This document shows positions 21,561 to 45,519 of a DNA stretch of 52,728 bases, in pieces. The DNA is taken from the NCBI RefSeq assembly GCF_001005315.1, contig NZ_LBMG01000035.1:1-52728 (forward strand). Reading direction: 5' to 3'. Source of the stretch: Kordia jejudonensis. Lineage in GTDB: Bacteria; Bacteroidota; Bacteroidia; Flavobacteriales; Flavobacteriaceae. The notes under the pieces were generated by a model, which worked only from the letters and a program-made list of their open reading frames with translations, was not told the DNA's origin and made no database searches. A program made the position numbers and the translations under genes. Every line of letters starts with the position of its first letter. Position 1 is the stretch's first letter.

Positions 21561-21662
21561 TTGTTATCTATCCGCTTTCGCAGTAGAATGTAGCACCTTC
21601 TTTATGAGTAAAGGGTTGCTAAGGCTTCATCGGGTCTATTCCCTCTGCCTTTCTTGATAACG
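21561..21662 (-). promoter_or_regulatory. SAM-I (S-box) riboswitch of the metH unit
   Basis: Read on the minus strand, the element has all classical S-box blocks in order: TTATCAAGAAAGG, CAGAGGGA, GACCCGATGAAGCC, AGCAACCC, AAGGTGCTACATTC and GATAGATAAC. P1 pairs GTTATC with GATAAC. SAM binding is known to repress expression in this family. A second GATAAC about 40 nt downstream (plus-strand 21521-21526), preceded by a seven-base T-run, could offer an alternative P1 partner. The expression platform is otherwise not obvious. Confidence 0.92.
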
Positions 21663-21860
21663 TCAATATAGGTATGAACTGTTTGTTGACACAAAGAAAC
21701 GGTTTGCGATAGAAAGATGCAAGTATTTTTTTGTGATTTTTGGGCTATAACGTTTTCGTTGAAGAATTTAGAATGTTAAATGGTGGATTTTAAATTTTAA
21801 ATGCTAAATATTGAATGGTGGATTTTGTCGTTTGAACTTTTAAACTTTAGTTTTTGATTG

Positions 21861-29967: not shown

Positions 29968-32370
29968 TTATAGTTTTTCTGTCAACCGCAATATATCGCC
30001 AAAAACACCTCTGGCGGTTACAGCCGCACCAGCTCCAGCACCTTGTATGACTAACGGTTGTGTTGCGTAAGCTTCTGTGTAGATTTCAAAGATAGAATCT
30101 GAACCTTTTATCTGCCCCAAAGCACTGTTTTGAGGAACTGAAATTAGCTTTACTTCTAAGATTCCTGTTTCTGTAGATAAATCGCCAACATACCGCAAAA
30201 CATGATTTTTTTGCTGATTTGCTTTGATGAGTTGATAGGTTTTATCCAATTCGGTGACTTTCTTTTTGAAAGCCTCTAGTGAAATATGTTGCAAGTCGTT
30301 TGGCAATAAGTTTTGAATGGATATGTCTGACAATTCATGTTTTAAATCGAGTTCTCTCGCAAGAATTAAAAGTTTCCGCGCTACATCATTTCCAGATAAA
30401 TCTTCGCGTGCATCCGGCTCCGTAAATCCTTTGTTTTCTGCTTGTTGCAATACAGTACTAAACGGAATTTCTTCCACCGAAAATGTATTGAATAGATAAC
30501 TTAATGAACCCGAAAATACACCGCGAATTTTCTTGATTTTCTCGCCTGATTTGTGCAATAGTTTTATTGTATCAATAAGTGGTAAACCTGCTCCAACATT
30601 GGTTTCATACAGATAACTTTTTTGATGTTTTTTTAGTTGTGTCCGCAATTCTTCATAGAATGTATAGTCAACTGTATTTGCAATTTTATTTGCCGAAACC
30701 AAATCAAAACCATTTGTAACTAAATGTATATAATTATGTACAAATTCTTTACTCGCTGTCGTATCAACTGCTAATAGGTTTTCTAAATGATTTGCTTTTG
30801 CATAATCAATGATTTGTGCTAACGTGTATGCCGTTTTTTCAGTTTGAAATCCAGTTTTCCAATCGTCAGTGATTCCGTTTTTATCTAAATAAACGTGTTT
30901 TGAATCCGCCACAGCGAATACATTTAATTTGATATTATTTTTGTCTAAAATGTCTTTTTTACTGTGTATGATTTGATTTAATAAGGTACCACCAACCAAA
31001 CCTTTTCCAAAAACGGCAATGTTGATTTTTTTAGAAATGCCAAATATTTGACCGTGAATGACATTAACCGCTTTGTGCAATTGTGTTTTCTTCACCACCA
31101 AACTCACATTTTTTCCAGAAACCGTATTGTTGAATAATACAGGAACGATTTGATTTTTAATCAACGCCGTATACGGTTTATGAAATTCGCTTAAATCTTG
31201 CCCAACAATCGAAATGACACTTACGTTTTCTTCCACAGCAATTTTACTAACATCTTTCGTGTAAAAATCATGTTCAAATTCACGTTCTAAAGCAATGACC
31301 GCTTTTGTAGCTTGATTTCTGTCGATAACCAAACCGATACCGCGTTCGGATGAACCTTGCGAAATGACATTTACATTGATATCATGTTCGCTTAGCGTTT
31401 TAAAAATTCGTGCATCCACACCAATTTTCCCCAACAAACCTCTTCCTTCTAAGTTGATTAGCGCCACATTATCGAGCACAGAAATTGATTTGATTCCTTT
31501 TTCGGCGGCGTTTTCAGCAATGATTGTTCCTTTATCTTCCTTGTTAAAAGTATTCAGAATTCGCAACGGAATATTTTTTTCAATTAAAGGAACAATCGTC
31601 TTTGCATGTAATATGTTTGCGCCAAAAGTTGCAAGTTCATTGGCTTCGTTGAATGAAAGTGCTGCTATTTTTTTAGCATCTGAGACCAATTCTGGATTCG
31701 CCGTAAAAATTCCGTCTACATGTGTGTAATTTTGCAACTCTTCCGCATCTAAAAAATTTGCCAATAAAGCAGCAGTATAGTTGCTTCCATTTCTTCCTAA
31801 TGTGGTCGTTTCATTTTTTTGGTTAGAAGCTATAAATCCTGTGACAATATTGACCGTATTGCCATTATGTGATTTGAAATGATTGATGATATTTTTTCTC
31901 GAAATTGCTTCTATAGGTCGCGCATTACCAAATACATCATCAGTTTTTATCAACTTACGCGTATCTGTAAAATGTGCGTTTACACCTTTGTCTTTGAGTA
32001 ACTTTGTGACCAATTTCGCTGCGATAATTTCTCCTTGCGAAACGACTTTATCTTGTATTTTTTCTGAATAATCTGCCAATAAGGAAACACCTTGAAAAAT
32101 GGTTTCTAAGGTTTGAAATTCCTCAGACAAATCTACGGAAGTATCGCGTTGATTTTGATAATTTTTAAACGATTCTAACTGCGTTTTATACGCTTCTTGA
32201 TTTGCCGCTTTTTCTAAAATTTCTAACAATTCATCTGTCGCATTTCCGCGCGCAGACAGTACAACAGCAATTTGCTCATTCTTTTCAGCTTTGTCTGTTA
32301 TAATTTGAATTGCCGTATCAATTCCTTTTCCATTTGCAAGCGATTTTCCGCCAAATTTTAAAACCTTCAT
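29968..32370 (-). CDS. thrA: bifunctional aspartokinase / homoserine dehydrogenase
   Basis: This 800-residue fusion has an N-terminal aspartokinase (KFGGKSLANGKGI at 5-17; TTLGRNGSNYTAALLA), central ACT repeats (about 300-445; LINLEGRGLLGKIGVDARIF, VISIVGQDLSE) and a C-terminal homoserine dehydrogenase (VFGKGLVGGTLLNQI; ETNVGAGLPLIDTIK; GSLSYLFNTF). It phosphorylates aspartate and later reduces aspartate semialdehyde to homoserine. The usual KFGGTS motif reads KFGGKS. It is the last gene after metY and metX, so it is the Met-branch enzyme in function, comparable to MetL, although the sequence alone fits thrA or metL. The operon attenuators probably make it Met/Cys-responsive. Confidence 0.92.
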   Translation of the reverse strand: MKVLKFGGKSLANGKGIDTAIQIITDKAEKNEQIAVVLSARGNATDELLEILEKAANQEAYKTQLESFKNYQNQRDTSVDLSEEFQTLETIFQGVSLLADYSEKIQDKVVSQGEIIAAKLVTKLLKDKGVNAHFTDTRKLIKTDDVFGNARPIEAISRKNIINHFKSHNGNTVNIVTGFIASNQKNETTTLGRNGSNYTAALLANFLDAEELQNYTHVDGIFTANPELVSDAKKIAALSFNEANELATFGANILHAKTIVPLIEKNIPLRILNTFNKEDKGTIIAENAAEKGIKSISVLDNVALINLEGRGLLGKIGVDARIFKTLSEHDINVNVISQGSSERGIGLVIDRNQATKAVIALEREFEHDFYTKDVSKIAVEENVSVISIVGQDLSEFHKPYTALIKNQIVPVLFNNTVSGKNVSLVVKKTQLHKAVNVIHGQIFGISKKINIAVFGKGLVGGTLLNQIIHSKKDILDKNNIKLNVFAVADSKHVYLDKNGITDDWKTGFQTEKTAYTLAQIIDYAKANHLENLLAVDTTASKEFVHNYIHLVTNGFDLVSANKIANTVDYTFYEELRTQLKKHQKSYLYETNVGAGLPLIDTIKLLHKSGEKIKKIRGVFSGSLSYLFNTFSVEEIPFSTVLQQAENKGFTEPDAREDLSGNDVARKLLILARELDLKHELSDISIQNLLPNDLQHISLEAFKKKVTELDKTYQLIKANQQKNHVLRYVGDLSTETGILEVKLISVPQNSALGQIKGSDSIFEIYTEAYATQPLVIQGAGAGAAVTARGVFGDILRLTEKL

Positions 32371-32390: not shown

Positions 32391-33383
32391 TTACACTTTT
32401 GATGTTGATGGCACTCTGAAAATATTTCTGAGTAATAGACTCAATTGTTCATATTCTATTAAAAAAGCATCGTGTCCGTGAATGGAATCAATATGATCGT
32501 AGTATATGTTCGATTTGATATGTTTTAAGCGTTCAAAAGTTTCTTTGTTTTCTGCCGCTGTGAAAAATACGTCTGTGTTAATACTTATCATATGAATTGT
32601 GGAATTGATGTTTGCCACAACTTTTTCCAACGGTTCGCGACCTCTAGTAATATCAATGGTTTTTAGCAATTGATTCATGAGTTTGTATGCAGCTAGCTGA
32701 AACCGTTCCTGCAATTTTTCGCCATGATGGAGCAACCAACTTTCGGTATTGAATAAATCTTTTTCTTTGTGTCGCGTTCGCTGAAATTTTGCCTTTAAGG
32801 AAAAAGGAGAACGATAACACAACATGGCATGAATACGCGCATCTTGAATCGGTTGATTGGAATTTTCTAAAATTCGTTCTTGCAGGAAGCAATTCGCAAT
32901 TAACCAATCGGATGATTTCCAATCAGAAGCTATCGGAATTAAATGTTGAATCATATTGGGTTCTAAAGCGGCAATTTCCCACGCAATTCCTCCGCCTAAC
33001 GATCCGCCAATGGCAGCAAAAAGGTTTTGAATTTTCAAATGTTCTAAACCTCTAATGAAAATTTTTGCCATGTCTCTAGCAACAAAATCTTTGTACTGTT
33101 TGATGAGTCCGGCTTCTTCCGTATGTCCGTTTCCAGGAATATTGAAGCTTAATATGCGGTAATGATTGGTATCGATACATTTTTCTGGACCAACTAATGT
33201 TTTCCACCAACCATTTTCGCCTGTGACTTCTGAGTTTCCTGTTAATGCATGATTTACCAATACAATTGGCGCGTCTGCACGATCTGGTCCAAAAAATTGA
33301 TAGCTCAACTTTATCGTTGGATAGTACGCGCCACTTTCTGTAAAAAAGTCTGTAATGGTAATATGTGCAATACGTTTTCCCAT
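32391..33383 (-). CDS. metX: homoserine O-acetyltransferase
   Basis: This alpha/beta-hydrolase acetylates homoserine with acetyl-CoA. The start is placed at ATG 33383 (MGKRIAHITITDF), giving 330 residues; the longer frame overlaps the metY stop and adds 15 atypical residues. The nucleophile serine lies in AAIGGSLGGGIAWE, the acid Asp in ISINTDVFF and the catalytic His in SIHGHDAFLIE. LVNHALTGNSEV forms the oxyanion region. It lies ten bases after metY and 20 bases before AK-HSD in one operon. Confidence 0.92.
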   Translation of the reverse strand: MGKRIAHITITDFFTESGAYYPTIKLSYQFFGPDRADAPIVLVNHALTGNSEVTGENGWWKTLVGPEKCIDTNHYRILSFNIPGNGHTEEAGLIKQYKDFVARDMAKIFIRGLEHLKIQNLFAAIGGSLGGGIAWEIAALEPNMIQHLIPIASDWKSSDWLIANCFLQERILENSNQPIQDARIHAMLCYRSPFSLKAKFQRTRHKEKDLFNTESWLLHHGEKLQERFQLAAYKLMNQLLKTIDITRGREPLEKVVANINSTIHMISINTDVFFTAAENKETFERLKHIKSNIYYDHIDSIHGHDAFLIEYEQLSLLLRNIFRVPSTSKV

Positions 33384-33393
33384 GGTGTACTTT

Positions 33394-34689
33394 TTAGGAT
33401 GCTGGAATTCCTGCAACAATATTTTCAAATACGGCTTGTAAGTCAGCTTTTAAATCTTCTACATCTTCCAATCCGACTGATAAACGAATTAAATCTTGTG
33501 TCACACCTGTAGACGTTTGTTGCGCTTCATTGAGTTGTTGATGTGTTGTACTTGCTGGATGAATGATGAGCGATTTTGTATCTCCAATATTGGCTAAGAG
33601 TGAAAATACTTTCGTTTCGTCAGCGATACGTTTTGCCGCTTCAAATCCTGCTTTGATTCCAAATGTTACAATTCCACTTTGTCCTTTTGGTAAGTATTTT
33701 TCGGCCAATGCTTTGTAATTACTGGTTTCTAATCCTGGATAATTTACCCAAGCTACGGCATCTTGTGTTTGTAACCATTTTGCCAATTCTAAAGCGTTTT
33801 CACTGTGTTTTTGAATACGAATTGGTAAAGTTTCTAGTCCTTGAATAATTTGAAATGCATTGAATGGACTTAACGCCGAACCAAAATCACGTAAACCTTC
33901 AATACGAACTTTCGCTATAAAAGCGGCTTCTTTTAGGACTTCACTGTAGACTAAACCGTGATATCCTGCGGATGGTTCCGTAAATTCTGGGAATTTCCCG
34001 TTTGTCCAGTCAAAAGTTCCAGCGTCAATAATAGCGCCTCCTAAAGCGGTTCCGTTTCCGTTGATGTATTTTGTAAGTGAATGAATGACAATATTTGCAC
34101 CGTGTTTGATAGGATTCAATAAGTAAGGTGTTGCAATTGTATTGTCGACAATTAGTGGAAGTTTGTTGGCTTTGGCTTGTTCCGAAATGGCTTCAATATC
34201 TAAGACATCTAGTTTCGGATTTCCAAGTGATTCTATAAAAACAACTCGTGTGTTTTCTTGTACCGCATCACTAAAGCTATTTGGTTCGTTTGGATCTACA
34301 AATGTTGTAGTGATTCCGAGTCTTGGCAATGTTACATTGAGTAAGTTATATGTTCCGCCATATAAACTGTTAGATGCAACAATATGATCGCCTGCTCTTA
34401 ATAATGTAAGGAACGTTGTTGCAATTGCGGCTGTTCCTGAAGCGGTTACTACTGCGGCAATTCCGCCTTCAAGTGACGCCAAGCGTTGCTCTAAAATATC
34501 ATTTGTGGGATTGTTGATTCGTGTGTAAATATTTCCAGGTTCTGCTAATGAAAATAAGTTGGATGCATGATCTGAGTTGTTGAATACGTATGCAGTTGAT
34601 TGATAAATTGGGACAGCTCGTGTTCCGCCGTTTTGCGTCGTATCGTGTCCTGAATGTAATGCTTTTGTTGCGAATTTCTGTGTGCTCAT
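33394..34689 (-). CDS. metY: O-acetylhomoserine sulfhydrylase
   Basis: This 431-residue enzyme of the Cys/Met-metabolism PLP family replaces the acetyl group of O-acetylhomoserine with sulfide to form homocysteine. The start is MSTQKFATKALHSGHD at 34689; upstream in-frame codons are low-complexity NQQINRLTNRQIN encoded by a repeat. Motifs include YQSTAYVF, RINNPTND, ASGTAAIATTFL and the PLP lysine in IHSLTKYINGNG. As first gene of the operon it follows the second attenuator by about 130 nt. Cystathionine gamma-synthase is less likely because of the metX context and sequence type. Confidence 0.92.
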   Translation of the reverse strand: MSTQKFATKALHSGHDTTQNGGTRAVPIYQSTAYVFNNSDHASNLFSLAEPGNIYTRINNPTNDILEQRLASLEGGIAAVVTASGTAAIATTFLTLLRAGDHIVASNSLYGGTYNLLNVTLPRLGITTTFVDPNEPNSFSDAVQENTRVVFIESLGNPKLDVLDIEAISEQAKANKLPLIVDNTIATPYLLNPIKHGANIVIHSLTKYINGNGTALGGAIIDAGTFDWTNGKFPEFTEPSAGYHGLVYSEVLKEAAFIAKVRIEGLRDFGSALSPFNAFQIIQGLETLPIRIQKHSENALELAKWLQTQDAVAWVNYPGLETSNYKALAEKYLPKGQSGIVTFGIKAGFEAAKRIADETKVFSLLANIGDTKSLIIHPASTTHQQLNEAQQTSTGVTQDLIRLSVGLEDVEDLKADLQAVFENIVAGIPAS

Positions 34690-34739
34690 GTGTTCTTGTT
34701 TTTGAGTATTAGAGTATTTGTGTGTTTTTGATTTGTTTA

Positions 34740-34795
34740 TTTGTCTATTTGTTAATCTGTTGATTTGTTGATTTGTTGATTTGTTGAGTAGGACG
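34740..34795. repeat. short-period repeat before metY
   Basis: Units of 8 bp (GTTGATTT repeated, with TTGTCTATTTG variants before it) fill the space between attenuator terminator B and the metY start. They would sit in the 5' untranslated region of the read-through transcript. Confidence 0.6.
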
Positions 34796-34812
34796 TTACT
34801 TTGTTTTTCAAC

Positions 34813-34858
34813 CAAACAAAAAGGTCCTTTTGGATGTGTATTACCAAAAGGACCTTTT
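34813..34858 (-). terminator. attenuator terminator B of the metY operon
   Basis: A 15-bp perfect stem (plus-strand AAAAGGTCCTTTTGG at 34819-34833 pairing with CCAAAAGGACCTTTT at 34844-34858, 10-nt loop) is followed on the minus strand by a T-rich run. It comes 20 nt after the stop codon of leader B and well before metY, so it must be passed for expression. AAAAG inside leader B could compete for part of its 5' arm, but the antiterminator is less clear than for terminator A. Confidence 0.88.
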
Positions 34859-34878
34859 CTATGAATAGAATAAACTAA

Positions 34879-35004
34879 CTATAGTTTATCTGGAACTTTT
34901 CGATAATAGCGAAGTTGGCTACAGCATAGCATGCACATAACCATCATACAACAACACATAGTCATTGTCATTTTGAATTCCGCTATTTGAAAAATTGTGT
35001 TCAT
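34879..35004 (-). CDS. Met/Cys-rich attenuator leader peptide B
   Basis: This 41-codon minus-strand frame reads MNTIFQIAEFK, then MTMTMCCCMMVMCMLCC, then SQLRYYRKVPDKL. Thirteen of the 17 residues at positions 12-28 are Met or Cys (seven Met, six Cys). It lies between terminators A and B upstream of metY-metX-AK/HSD. Ribosome stalling on Met or Cys codons when the charged tRNAs are scarce would control terminator B. Translation could instead start at Met12. The composition cannot be a chance feature of an AT-rich spacer and matches the operon products. Confidence 0.87.
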   Translation of the reverse strand: MNTIFQIAEFKMTMTMCCCMMVMCMLCCSQLRYYRKVPDKL

Positions 35005-35044
35005 TTGGTTTTTTGAAAAAAAATTAACTTAAAATATAATCATG

Positions 35045-35070
35045 AAAAAAGCCTCTGCAATTGCAGAGGC
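35045..35070 (-). terminator. attenuator terminator A of the metY operon
   Basis: The palindrome GCCTCTGCAA/TTGCAGAGGC (35051-35070) is followed on the minus strand by six T. GCAGAGG inside leader A (plus-strand CCTCTGC at 35122-35128) is identical to the 3' arm and can pair with the 5' arm, giving a clear antiterminator. Confidence 0.88.
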
Positions 35071-35101
35071 TTAAATTTATTGATAGATGCTTTTTTTAAA
35101 G

Positions 35102-35179
35102 TTAGCGTAATACAATAGTGTCCTCTGCGGCATTTCTGCTACACATCATACAACACATATTACAAACTTTTTTAAACAT
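35102..35179 (-). CDS. Met/Cys-rich attenuator leader peptide A
   Basis: This 25-codon minus-strand frame starts MFKKV, continues CNMCCMMC and ends SRNAAEDTIVLR. Seven of the eight residues at positions 6-13 are Met or Cys. It starts about 15 nt after the expected transcription start and is followed by terminator A. The antiterminator segment GCAGAGG lies within its codons 17-20, so a ribosome stalled on the Met/Cys run would leave it free while one reaching the stop would cover it. Confidence 0.87.
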   Translation of the reverse strand: MFKKVCNMCCMMCSRNAAEDTIVLR

Positions 35180-35198
35180 TTTTCGTCTTTGTTTGTTA

Positions 35199-35231
35199 CA
35201 AAGGTAAAGTTATATTTATTTAATATCCAAA
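35199..35231 (-). promoter_or_regulatory. promoter of the metY leader/operon
   Basis: On the minus strand TTTG (35231-35228), 21 nt, then TACCTTTG (35206-35199) match the Bacteroidota consensus exactly. No second promoter was seen between leaders A and B, so both attenuators probably lie on one transcript. Confidence 0.75.
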
Positions 35232-35328: not shown

Positions 35329-35338
35329 CATCTGATTT

Positions 35339-35458
35339 TTGAGGAAAAATTTGAACTGATTGCAACCTCAAGTACTGAATTTACTTCGGTACCTAGTGTA
35401 TATAATATAGACTAGATTCTGAATTAAATTCAGGATATTAAAAAATGCTAAAGCAGTA
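35339..35458 (+). promoter_or_regulatory. SAM-II-like riboswitch with long loops, upstream of metK
   Basis: P1 pairs TTGAGG (35339-35344) with CCTCAA (35366-35371). Its loop reads AATTTGAACTGATTGCAA, matching the SAM-II consensus segment GATTTAACCGTATTGCAA. The downstream pseudoknot strand ATGCTAAAGCAGT (about 35445-35457) contains the conserved GCTAAA, and CAGT can pair with ACTG of the loop. The 3' strand is displaced by about 70 nt holding extra hairpins (GTAC/GTAC, CTAG/CTAG, TTCTGAAT/ATTCAGGA). I recall such long-loop SAM-II variants being described for Bacteroidota. The location before metK supports SAM feedback. Confidence 0.75.
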
Positions 35459-35538
35459 ATTTTATACTCCTTTAGCCGACCAAGCAATCATTTTTTTTTA
35501 TTCCTCATTTTTATAATTTTTTAAAAAGAAGATTTATT

Positions 35539-45262: not shown

Positions 45263-45519
45263 TTAGTTTTGTGACTGATTACGTTGTTTTCTTTTTTCAA
45301 TTGCTGTTAAAACTAAACAAAAAACGGCGTGGTTGCTAAGAACTAACGGATAAATACGTATAAACCACCATTCATTGCGGGAATCTACGGAAGTGAAGTT
45401 TCCGTACTTACAGGCTATTATTTTTCCTGTGATATGACCAATTTTGAAACATCAAACAACCAAACAGGAAGAAGCCGAAAATCCTTTTCAGAGTAGGCAA
45501 ATATTTAAAATAGTGTATT
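45263..45519. other. divergent intergenic region
   Basis: The 257-bp space between two divergent genes holds a short inverted repeat (ACGGAA/TTCCGT with a 7-nt loop, about 45388-45406) and a palindromic TACGTA nearby. These might be operator sequences, but I cannot tie them to a regulator. Confidence 0.3.

Follow-up and report, generated by a model that had tools for sequence, protein, structure and literature searches.

Two Met/Cys-rich leader peptides with predicted transcription attenuators in series upstream of metY in Kordia jejudonensis and other Flavobacteriaceae

We identified two short leader open reading frames (ORFs), each rich in methionine (Met) and cysteine (Cys) codons and each coupled to a predicted intrinsic terminator, upstream of the metY-metX-thrA genes of Kordia jejudonensis. 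The window analyzed is a stretch of 52,728 nucleotides (nt), positions 1 to 52,728 of contig NZ_LBMG01000035.1 (assembly GCF_001005315.1), whose minus strand carries between positions 35231 and 34818, in this order, a promoter-like site, leader A, terminator A, leader B and terminator B, followed by metY-metX-thrA. The tandem arrangement, A then B, is real and conserved. We assign a probability of roughly 0.87 to the reading that A and B are two classical ribosome-controlled transcription attenuators in series that would place metY-metX-thrA under the control of Met supply, with Cys as a second input; taken individually, each unit is very probably a classical attenuator of this type, as judged from its sequence and variation. 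An earlier note, made from the letters of the sequence alone, had proposed two ribosome-controlled attenuators in series, and all the parts that it named (the promoter-like site, both leaders, the GCAGAGG segment and both terminators) were found on the minus strand before metY.

The promoter-like site (TTTG-N21-TACCTTTG, 35199..35231, minus strand), identified by direct reading, is located directly 5' of leader A and is of the Bacteroidota type. It matches the TTTG / TAnnTTTG consensus described for this phylum (PMC7366714, PMC6847099), in which Shine-Dalgarno sequences are described as lacking (PMC6847099). Transcription would start approximately 12-18 nt 5' of leader A. Leader A is a 25-codon ORF (35179-35102, minus strand) that reads MFKKVCNMCCMMCSRNAAEDTIVLR and includes the Met/Cys run CNMCCMMC; the homologous leader is open in all 58 aligned model matches. 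Pairing and covariation assign to its interior an antiterminator segment, GCAGAGG (35128-35122, minus strand), predicted to pair with the 5' arm of terminator A. A 1:2 hairpin (35113..35162, minus strand), present in the lowest-energy fold and supported by covariation, pairs the start of the Met/Cys run with the stretch directly 3' of the antiterminator segment. Terminator A (35045..35072, minus strand) comprises 10 pairs (35072-35049) and a TTTT tract and was recovered by a simple terminator scan as well as by covariation. Leader A, its terminator and the antiterminator inside the leader are present as the earlier note described them, and the pairing of segment and arm co-varies.

Leader B (41 codons, 35004-34879, minus strand) reads MNTIFQIAEFKMTMTMCCCMMVMCMLCCSQLRYYRKVPDKL and carries the run MTMTMCCCMMVMCMLCC. 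Its predicted antiterminator segment, GCTATTATCGAAAAG (34896..34910, minus strand), also lies inside the leader and is assigned from pairing and covariation; the partner is part of the 5' arm and the loop of terminator B (34850-34839, CTTTTGGTAATA). Participation of the loop in the antiterminator would explain its conservation. Terminator B (34859-34818, minus strand), read directly from the sequence and supported by covariation, has 16 pairs, one of them G-U, instead of the 15 claimed before, and is absent from the simple terminator scan because the scan seeks loops of 3-8. The 419-nt stretch holds two ATG ORFs with at least six Met/Cys codons per eight-codon window, the best window having seven. 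Among 4000 dinucleotide shuffles of the stretch, the best eight-codon window had five and none (0/4000) contained two such ORFs. Folding z-scores, terminator included, were -4.1 for A and -7.4 for B.

To sample metY loci, we fetched relatives by MetY alone, without the leader, and took the best 80 of 578, the five closest of which were all Kordia (91-96% identity). Leaders A and/or B with their terminators were present in 12 of these 80 loci: both units in 8 (all five named Kordia, Flavobacterium sp. AED and two Lutibacter), A only in 3 (F. sandaracinum, F. xanthum and F. fryxellicola) and B only in 1 (F. fluvii). An ORF filter alone missed some leader loci, which were found via their terminators, read by eye and confirmed with covariance models built from 12 sequences for A and 10 for B; in the other loci of the 80, the models detected neither unit within 500 nt upstream of metY. 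The core of the SAM-I (S-adenosylmethionine, SAM) riboswitch, counted as a short pattern within 500 nt of metY that agreed with an Rfam scan in 16/16 loci run both ways, preceded the gene in 66 loci; two loci (L030 and L077) had neither core nor leaders and none had both.

Among 397 Flavobacteriaceae genomes searched (E <= 0.001), A matched in 37 and B in 31, and inspection revealed a Met-rich leader in 34 and 23 of them, respectively. Matches without a Met-rich leader were discarded as chance, both for A (G052, G276 and G318; L151-L153) and for B (L132, L135, L137-L141 and G138). A was followed by B on the same strand, 55-249 nt apart, in 20 genomes representing 13 genera. Of the first 30 A loci, 26 had metY as the next long ORF. 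The K. jejudonensis genome has one A and one B element at this threshold; an A search at E <= 1 added only weak matches (best E 0.05). Outside the family, a search of the order gave A matches in three genomes, real in G398 (a metX relative after the Met-rich leader MMFMMRNYYAEVFMVKI) and G419 (Met-rich leader MIQIQKNMCCMCMCRNYTEAYYAL) and due to chance in G666, where neither match had a Met-rich leader; the A matches inspected exclude weaker second matches in some genomes of this search. In another family of the same class, genome G853 carries A, B and metY together; class-level B matches L176-L179 had no Met-rich leader and were rejected as chance. Several weak matches lay antisense on the palindromic terminators and were kept out of the final alignments by stricter thresholds. 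These alignments contain 58 A matches from 59 sources (L173 fell below threshold) and 40 B matches from 40 sources, 39 of them distinct. Aligning metY upstream regions across Flavobacteriaceae, as the earlier note had suggested, revealed conserved leader frames and co-varying antiterminators in both units.

Covariation supports all five helices, three in A and two in B. In the 58 A sequences, the proportion of cells paired was 99.8% for the terminator (53 double-sided changes), 90.2% for the antiterminator (17) and 84.6% for the 1:2 hairpin (27, with double-sided changes in 7 of its 9 pairs). In the 39 distinct B sequences it was 99.6% for the terminator (46 double-sided changes, counted over 12 pairs) and 86.9% for the antiterminator (22). 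The covariation score of each helix was reached by 0/500 shuffles and was lower whenever the partner was slid by 1-3 columns. Because shuffles ignore relatedness, we also compared the pairing of leaders with their own terminator arm and with the arms of other genomes. Mean pairing was -12.7 versus -9.8 kcal/mol for A (32 loci) and -14.7 versus -12.0 kcal/mol for B (28 loci), so that matched leader-arm pairs were 2.7-2.9 kcal/mol better on average, with 0/20000 permutations reaching the own-arm value in either unit. The A set had 8 of 40 loci dropped as near-duplicates; the B set, drawn from 32 loci, left out L132 (no ORF), L118 and L128 (wrong stem chosen by the hairpin finder) and one near-duplicate. 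With one sequence per genus, picked by hand, 0/100000 permutations matched the own-arm pairing for A (19 genera) or B (16 genera). The encoded residues vary with the arm: GCAGAG (Ala-Glu) is found with CTCTGC, GCAGCG (Ala-Ala) with CGCTGC and GCAAGGG (Ala-Arg) with CCCTTGC.

The position of the codons relative to the segments is also constrained. In 46 of the 58 A sequences, 12 nt separate the end of the last Met/Cys codon from the antiterminator segment, a distance of 9-12 nt in 57; the segment itself ends 8-17 nt 5' of the stop codon in 57 sequences. Met/Cys codons are enriched in frame 0 of A (means of 5.5, 2.6 and 1.3 per leader in frames 0, 1 and 2, respectively). The 40 B leaders follow the same plan more loosely, with the last Met/Cys codon 5-17 nt 5' of the segment. 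Given the ribosome footprint, a ribosome stalled at the last Met/Cys codon would leave segment A free, and one at the stop codon would cover it. An inner hairpin directly 5' of segment A is a weak result (at least five pairs in 30/58 sequences, compared to 26% among shuffles), and we did not count it as covariation because its alignment register differs between genera. Many A leaders have a Trp codon after the Met run (MMMW); this codon is probably part of the hairpin beside the segment rather than of sensing.

In the mechanism that we propose, charged Met-tRNA (and Cys-tRNA) would allow the ribosome to reach the stop codon of leader A and cover the antiterminator segment, so that terminator A would form and transcription would end. 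With Met (or Cys) in short supply, the ribosome would stall at the Met/Cys codons just before its front edge reaches the segment, and the free segment would pair with the terminator 5' arm and let the RNA polymerase pass. Leader B would repeat the test some 100 nt later; read-through would thus be needed twice and its probabilities would multiply. If leader A were not translated, its 1:2 hairpin would hide the stretch around the segment and make termination the default. We infer termination, ribosome stalling at these codons and the multiplicative response from this anatomy, which fits the sequence-based features of ribosome-controlled attenuation: a short leader ORF rich in codons for the product of the regulated pathway; an intrinsic terminator, predicted from sequence and covariation, between the leader and the first gene; a putative antiterminator that would exclude the terminator, placed where a finishing ribosome would cover it; and, for the tandem, two leader ORFs in series, each with a predicted attenuator, as in mgtCBR. 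The 1:2 hairpin of A is supported across the family; for B, folding covered the single sequence of the window. Overall, the conserved leader frames, the covariation of both antiterminators and the nearly fixed spacing in A strongly support the proposal of two ribosome-controlled attenuators in series before metY.

Several observations weigh against this interpretation. The start codon of each leader requires Met as well, so that under severe starvation leader translation might fall and partly counteract the response. In 14/40 B leaders, just 5 nt separate the last Met/Cys codon from the segment. The codon content of the B leaders is biased by the way their ORFs were chosen, as the ATG frame richest in Met/Cys, and the conservation seen in the alignments is biased upward because the matches were found by, and aligned to, models that contain leader sequence. 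For antiterminator A, two of the five covariation measures are not above shuffles, the number of pairs with double-sided changes being matched by 227/500 and that of pair types by 328/500, and a slide of +2 raises both; its seventh pair forms in only 26/52 sequences. The corresponding values for antiterminator B are 22/500 and 129/500. Antiterminator pairing is poor in L091 and L102. Finally, the own arm was the best or tied-best partner in only 6/32 (A) and 5/28 (B) loci, because many genomes share the same arm.

The codon content of the leaders bears on which amino acid would be sensed. An internal Met codon is present in 58/58 A and 40/40 B leaders and Cys is missing from 8/58 and 1/40, respectively. 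Because Met is kept in all leaders and Cys is lost in some, Met-tRNA charging is most likely the common signal, with Cys as a frequent second input. It is possible, albeit unlikely, that both leaders are attenuators of which A responds mainly to one amino acid and B mainly to the other, as in a true two-input AND gate. Cys is more abundant in B-type leaders (median 4, 31 leaders) than in A-type leaders (median 2, 58 leaders), leader B of the window is richer in Cys than its leader A, and a tandem attenuator with two signals has been described in Salmonella mgtCBR (PMC3641672). However, both leaders of the window hold Met and Cys codons, Cys is lost in both types while internal Met is always kept, and the B leader of L126 is nearly Met-only. 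Thus, the codon content argues against two units answering different signals, and two separate amino-acid sensors were rejected as the leading reading. The sensing of both methionine and cysteine proposed in the earlier note needs to be corrected accordingly: each leader carries both codons, so that one sensor per amino acid is unsupported, and Met is the constant codon.

It is highly improbable that the stretch is a translation-independent RNA element, such as a riboswitch or T-box of unknown class, with incidental ORFs. The structure is conserved, and a SAM-I core occupies the equivalent position in most of the 80 metY loci. Yet the ORF is open in every A row, Met/Cys codons cluster in one frame and both Cys codons are used. 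Further, no Rfam family reached the gathering score on the metY strand of the stretch (the best leader-type match, Leu_leader, scored 26.3 bits against a cut-off of 50, and the T-box model was not among the matches), and a known riboswitch or T-box was rejected on these grounds. Least credible is that the small ORFs encode functional Met/Cys-rich peptides, with the hairpins as ordinary terminators of small transcripts: metal binding is conceivable for MCCMMC-like runs and the leader frames are conserved, but this reading was rejected on the own-arm permutations and on residues 3' of the run that change together with the terminator arm, as RNA pairing explains, and it is also opposed by the nearly fixed spacing in A, the dispensability of Cys in some leaders and the position of metY after most A leaders.

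The genes downstream of the proposed attenuators are all on the minus strand. metY (33394..34689, ATG at 34689) encodes a 431-amino-acid O-acetylhomoserine sulfhydrylase (NCBIfam TIGR01326, 633 bits, cut-off 495), followed by a metX-like homoserine acyltransferase gene (32391..33428; NCBIfam MetX models, 186 bits, below cut-offs) and a thrA-type gene for a bifunctional aspartate kinase / homoserine dehydrogenase (29968..32370; NCBIfam NF006959, 778 bits, cut-off 726). Approximately 130 nt of untranslated DNA separate terminator B from metY, and a run of CAACAAAT-like repeats lies in this stretch (34720-34800). Upstream of the leader region, metK is divergently oriented and preceded by a sub-threshold SAM-II riboswitch match (35335-35461, plus strand; 40.4 bits, cut-off 44). 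The only SAM-I riboswitch (Rfam RF00162) found in the genome precedes metH-like genes (21561-21663, minus strand); the metY leader stretch has no match to this family. A DUF805b RNA motif (RF02914, 41.1 bits) lies at 45465-45499 on the plus strand.

Leader A occurs alone, with leader B or in series with SAM-I, and precedes metY, metX-thrA, cysE-cysK-like genes or a TonB-dependent receptor gene. Eight loci of genus g128, which is probably Flavobacterium, show the receptor context (L143, L161, L162, L164 and L169-L172); the receptor was called with Pfam for L143 and L161 and by BLAST to L143 for the others. In L143 (G317:C1) the A and B elements are 3.1 kilobases apart with the receptor gene between them, and B stays with metY; in the other seven, the receptor is directly 3' of A and divergent from metK. 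Other genes that follow A-type leaders are a serine O-acetyltransferase gene (L163 and L166, with a cysteine-synthase-like gene next in L163), metX-thrA relatives (L146 and L148) and, in L145, an O-succinylhomoserine-sulfhydrylase-like gene, beyond which lies a PAPS-reductase-domain gene. In L168, A and B are followed by an OsmC-domain gene. Most of these targets fit a Met/Cys signal. In L142 (G143:C1, minus strand 4119-3763), a SAM-I riboswitch lies about 130 nt beyond leader A and its terminator, ahead of metX-thrA; there, a sensor of tRNA charging and one of SAM would stand in series, so that the two systems do combine outside metY.

Two further arrangements were noted among these genomes. 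In three Flavobacterium loci (L029:7637-7974, L052:8021-8341 and L017:5415-5743), a small ORF (69 codons in L029 and L017; that of L029 had no Pfam match) is preceded by a second tandem that resembles A-B but is degenerate and poor in Met/Cys codons; a SAM-I riboswitch and metX come after the ORF. In L167 (G624, minus strand), whose leaders have fewer Met/Cys codons, a third terminator-like hairpin (~1215-1175) follows terminator B before a homoserine-dehydrogenase-related gene.

Control of methionine operons by SAM riboswitches, T-boxes or the MetJ repressor is textbook knowledge. On balance, we lean towards the view that the elements described here form an apparently undescribed, family-wide regulon of methionine(-cysteine) leader-peptide attenuators in the Flavobacteriales that reaches other families of the class. 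It would replace SAM-I at metY, often with two units in series that sharpen the response, behave as a set of exchangeable modules and sense elongator Met-tRNA charging although translation starts with initiator Met-tRNA. Attenuation by Met codons poses a puzzle, since Met is also the first codon of every leader. Further, SAM-I cores and Met-codon leaders never occur together before metY in the best 80 loci; a metabolite sensor and a tRNA-charging sensor could therefore be compared on one and the same enzyme. The tandem likewise offers a natural setting in which to ask why two serial attenuators are retained. The arrangement, which many relatives have kept, probably restricts methionine synthesis to times of shortage.

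Ribosome-controlled attenuators are known from amino-acid operons of the trp, his, leu, ilv and thr type. The metY region resembles them in having a leader ORF with codons for the product, a predicted antiterminator and intrinsic terminator and a biosynthetic operon downstream; it differs in its Met/Cys codons, in its two complete units in series and in its occurrence in Bacteroidota. The SAM-I riboswitch senses SAM without translation. It shares with the leaders the gene and position (metY, 66 of the best 80 loci by core pattern), but RF00162 has no match at the K. jejudonensis locus. The description of Met/Cys attenuation of this operon as little studied holds in part: we found no report of a Met or Met/Cys leader-peptide attenuator in the open-licence PubMed Central literature, supplements aside, yet a 2021 transcriptome of F. 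psychrophilum, from the same family, suggested leader-peptide attenuation upstream of amino-acid operons (PMC9723704). The main text of that study does not contain the word "methionine", and its passages considered here mention neither a Met/Cys leader nor a tandem. For the candidate cysteine leader peptides of Actinobacteria (PMC1262725), a leader ORF upstream of genes for sulfur amino acids likewise contains Cys codons; in contrast to these, as described there, the elements reported here have terminator-like hairpins, co-varying antiterminators and Met as the constant codon. The Salmonella mgtCBR leader similarly carries two short ORFs on one transcript, each tied to attenuation (PMC3641672). 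The signals described for mgtCBR differ between the two ORFs (ATP and proline limitation; PMC3641672), whereas the same two codon types are present in both leaders upstream of metY.
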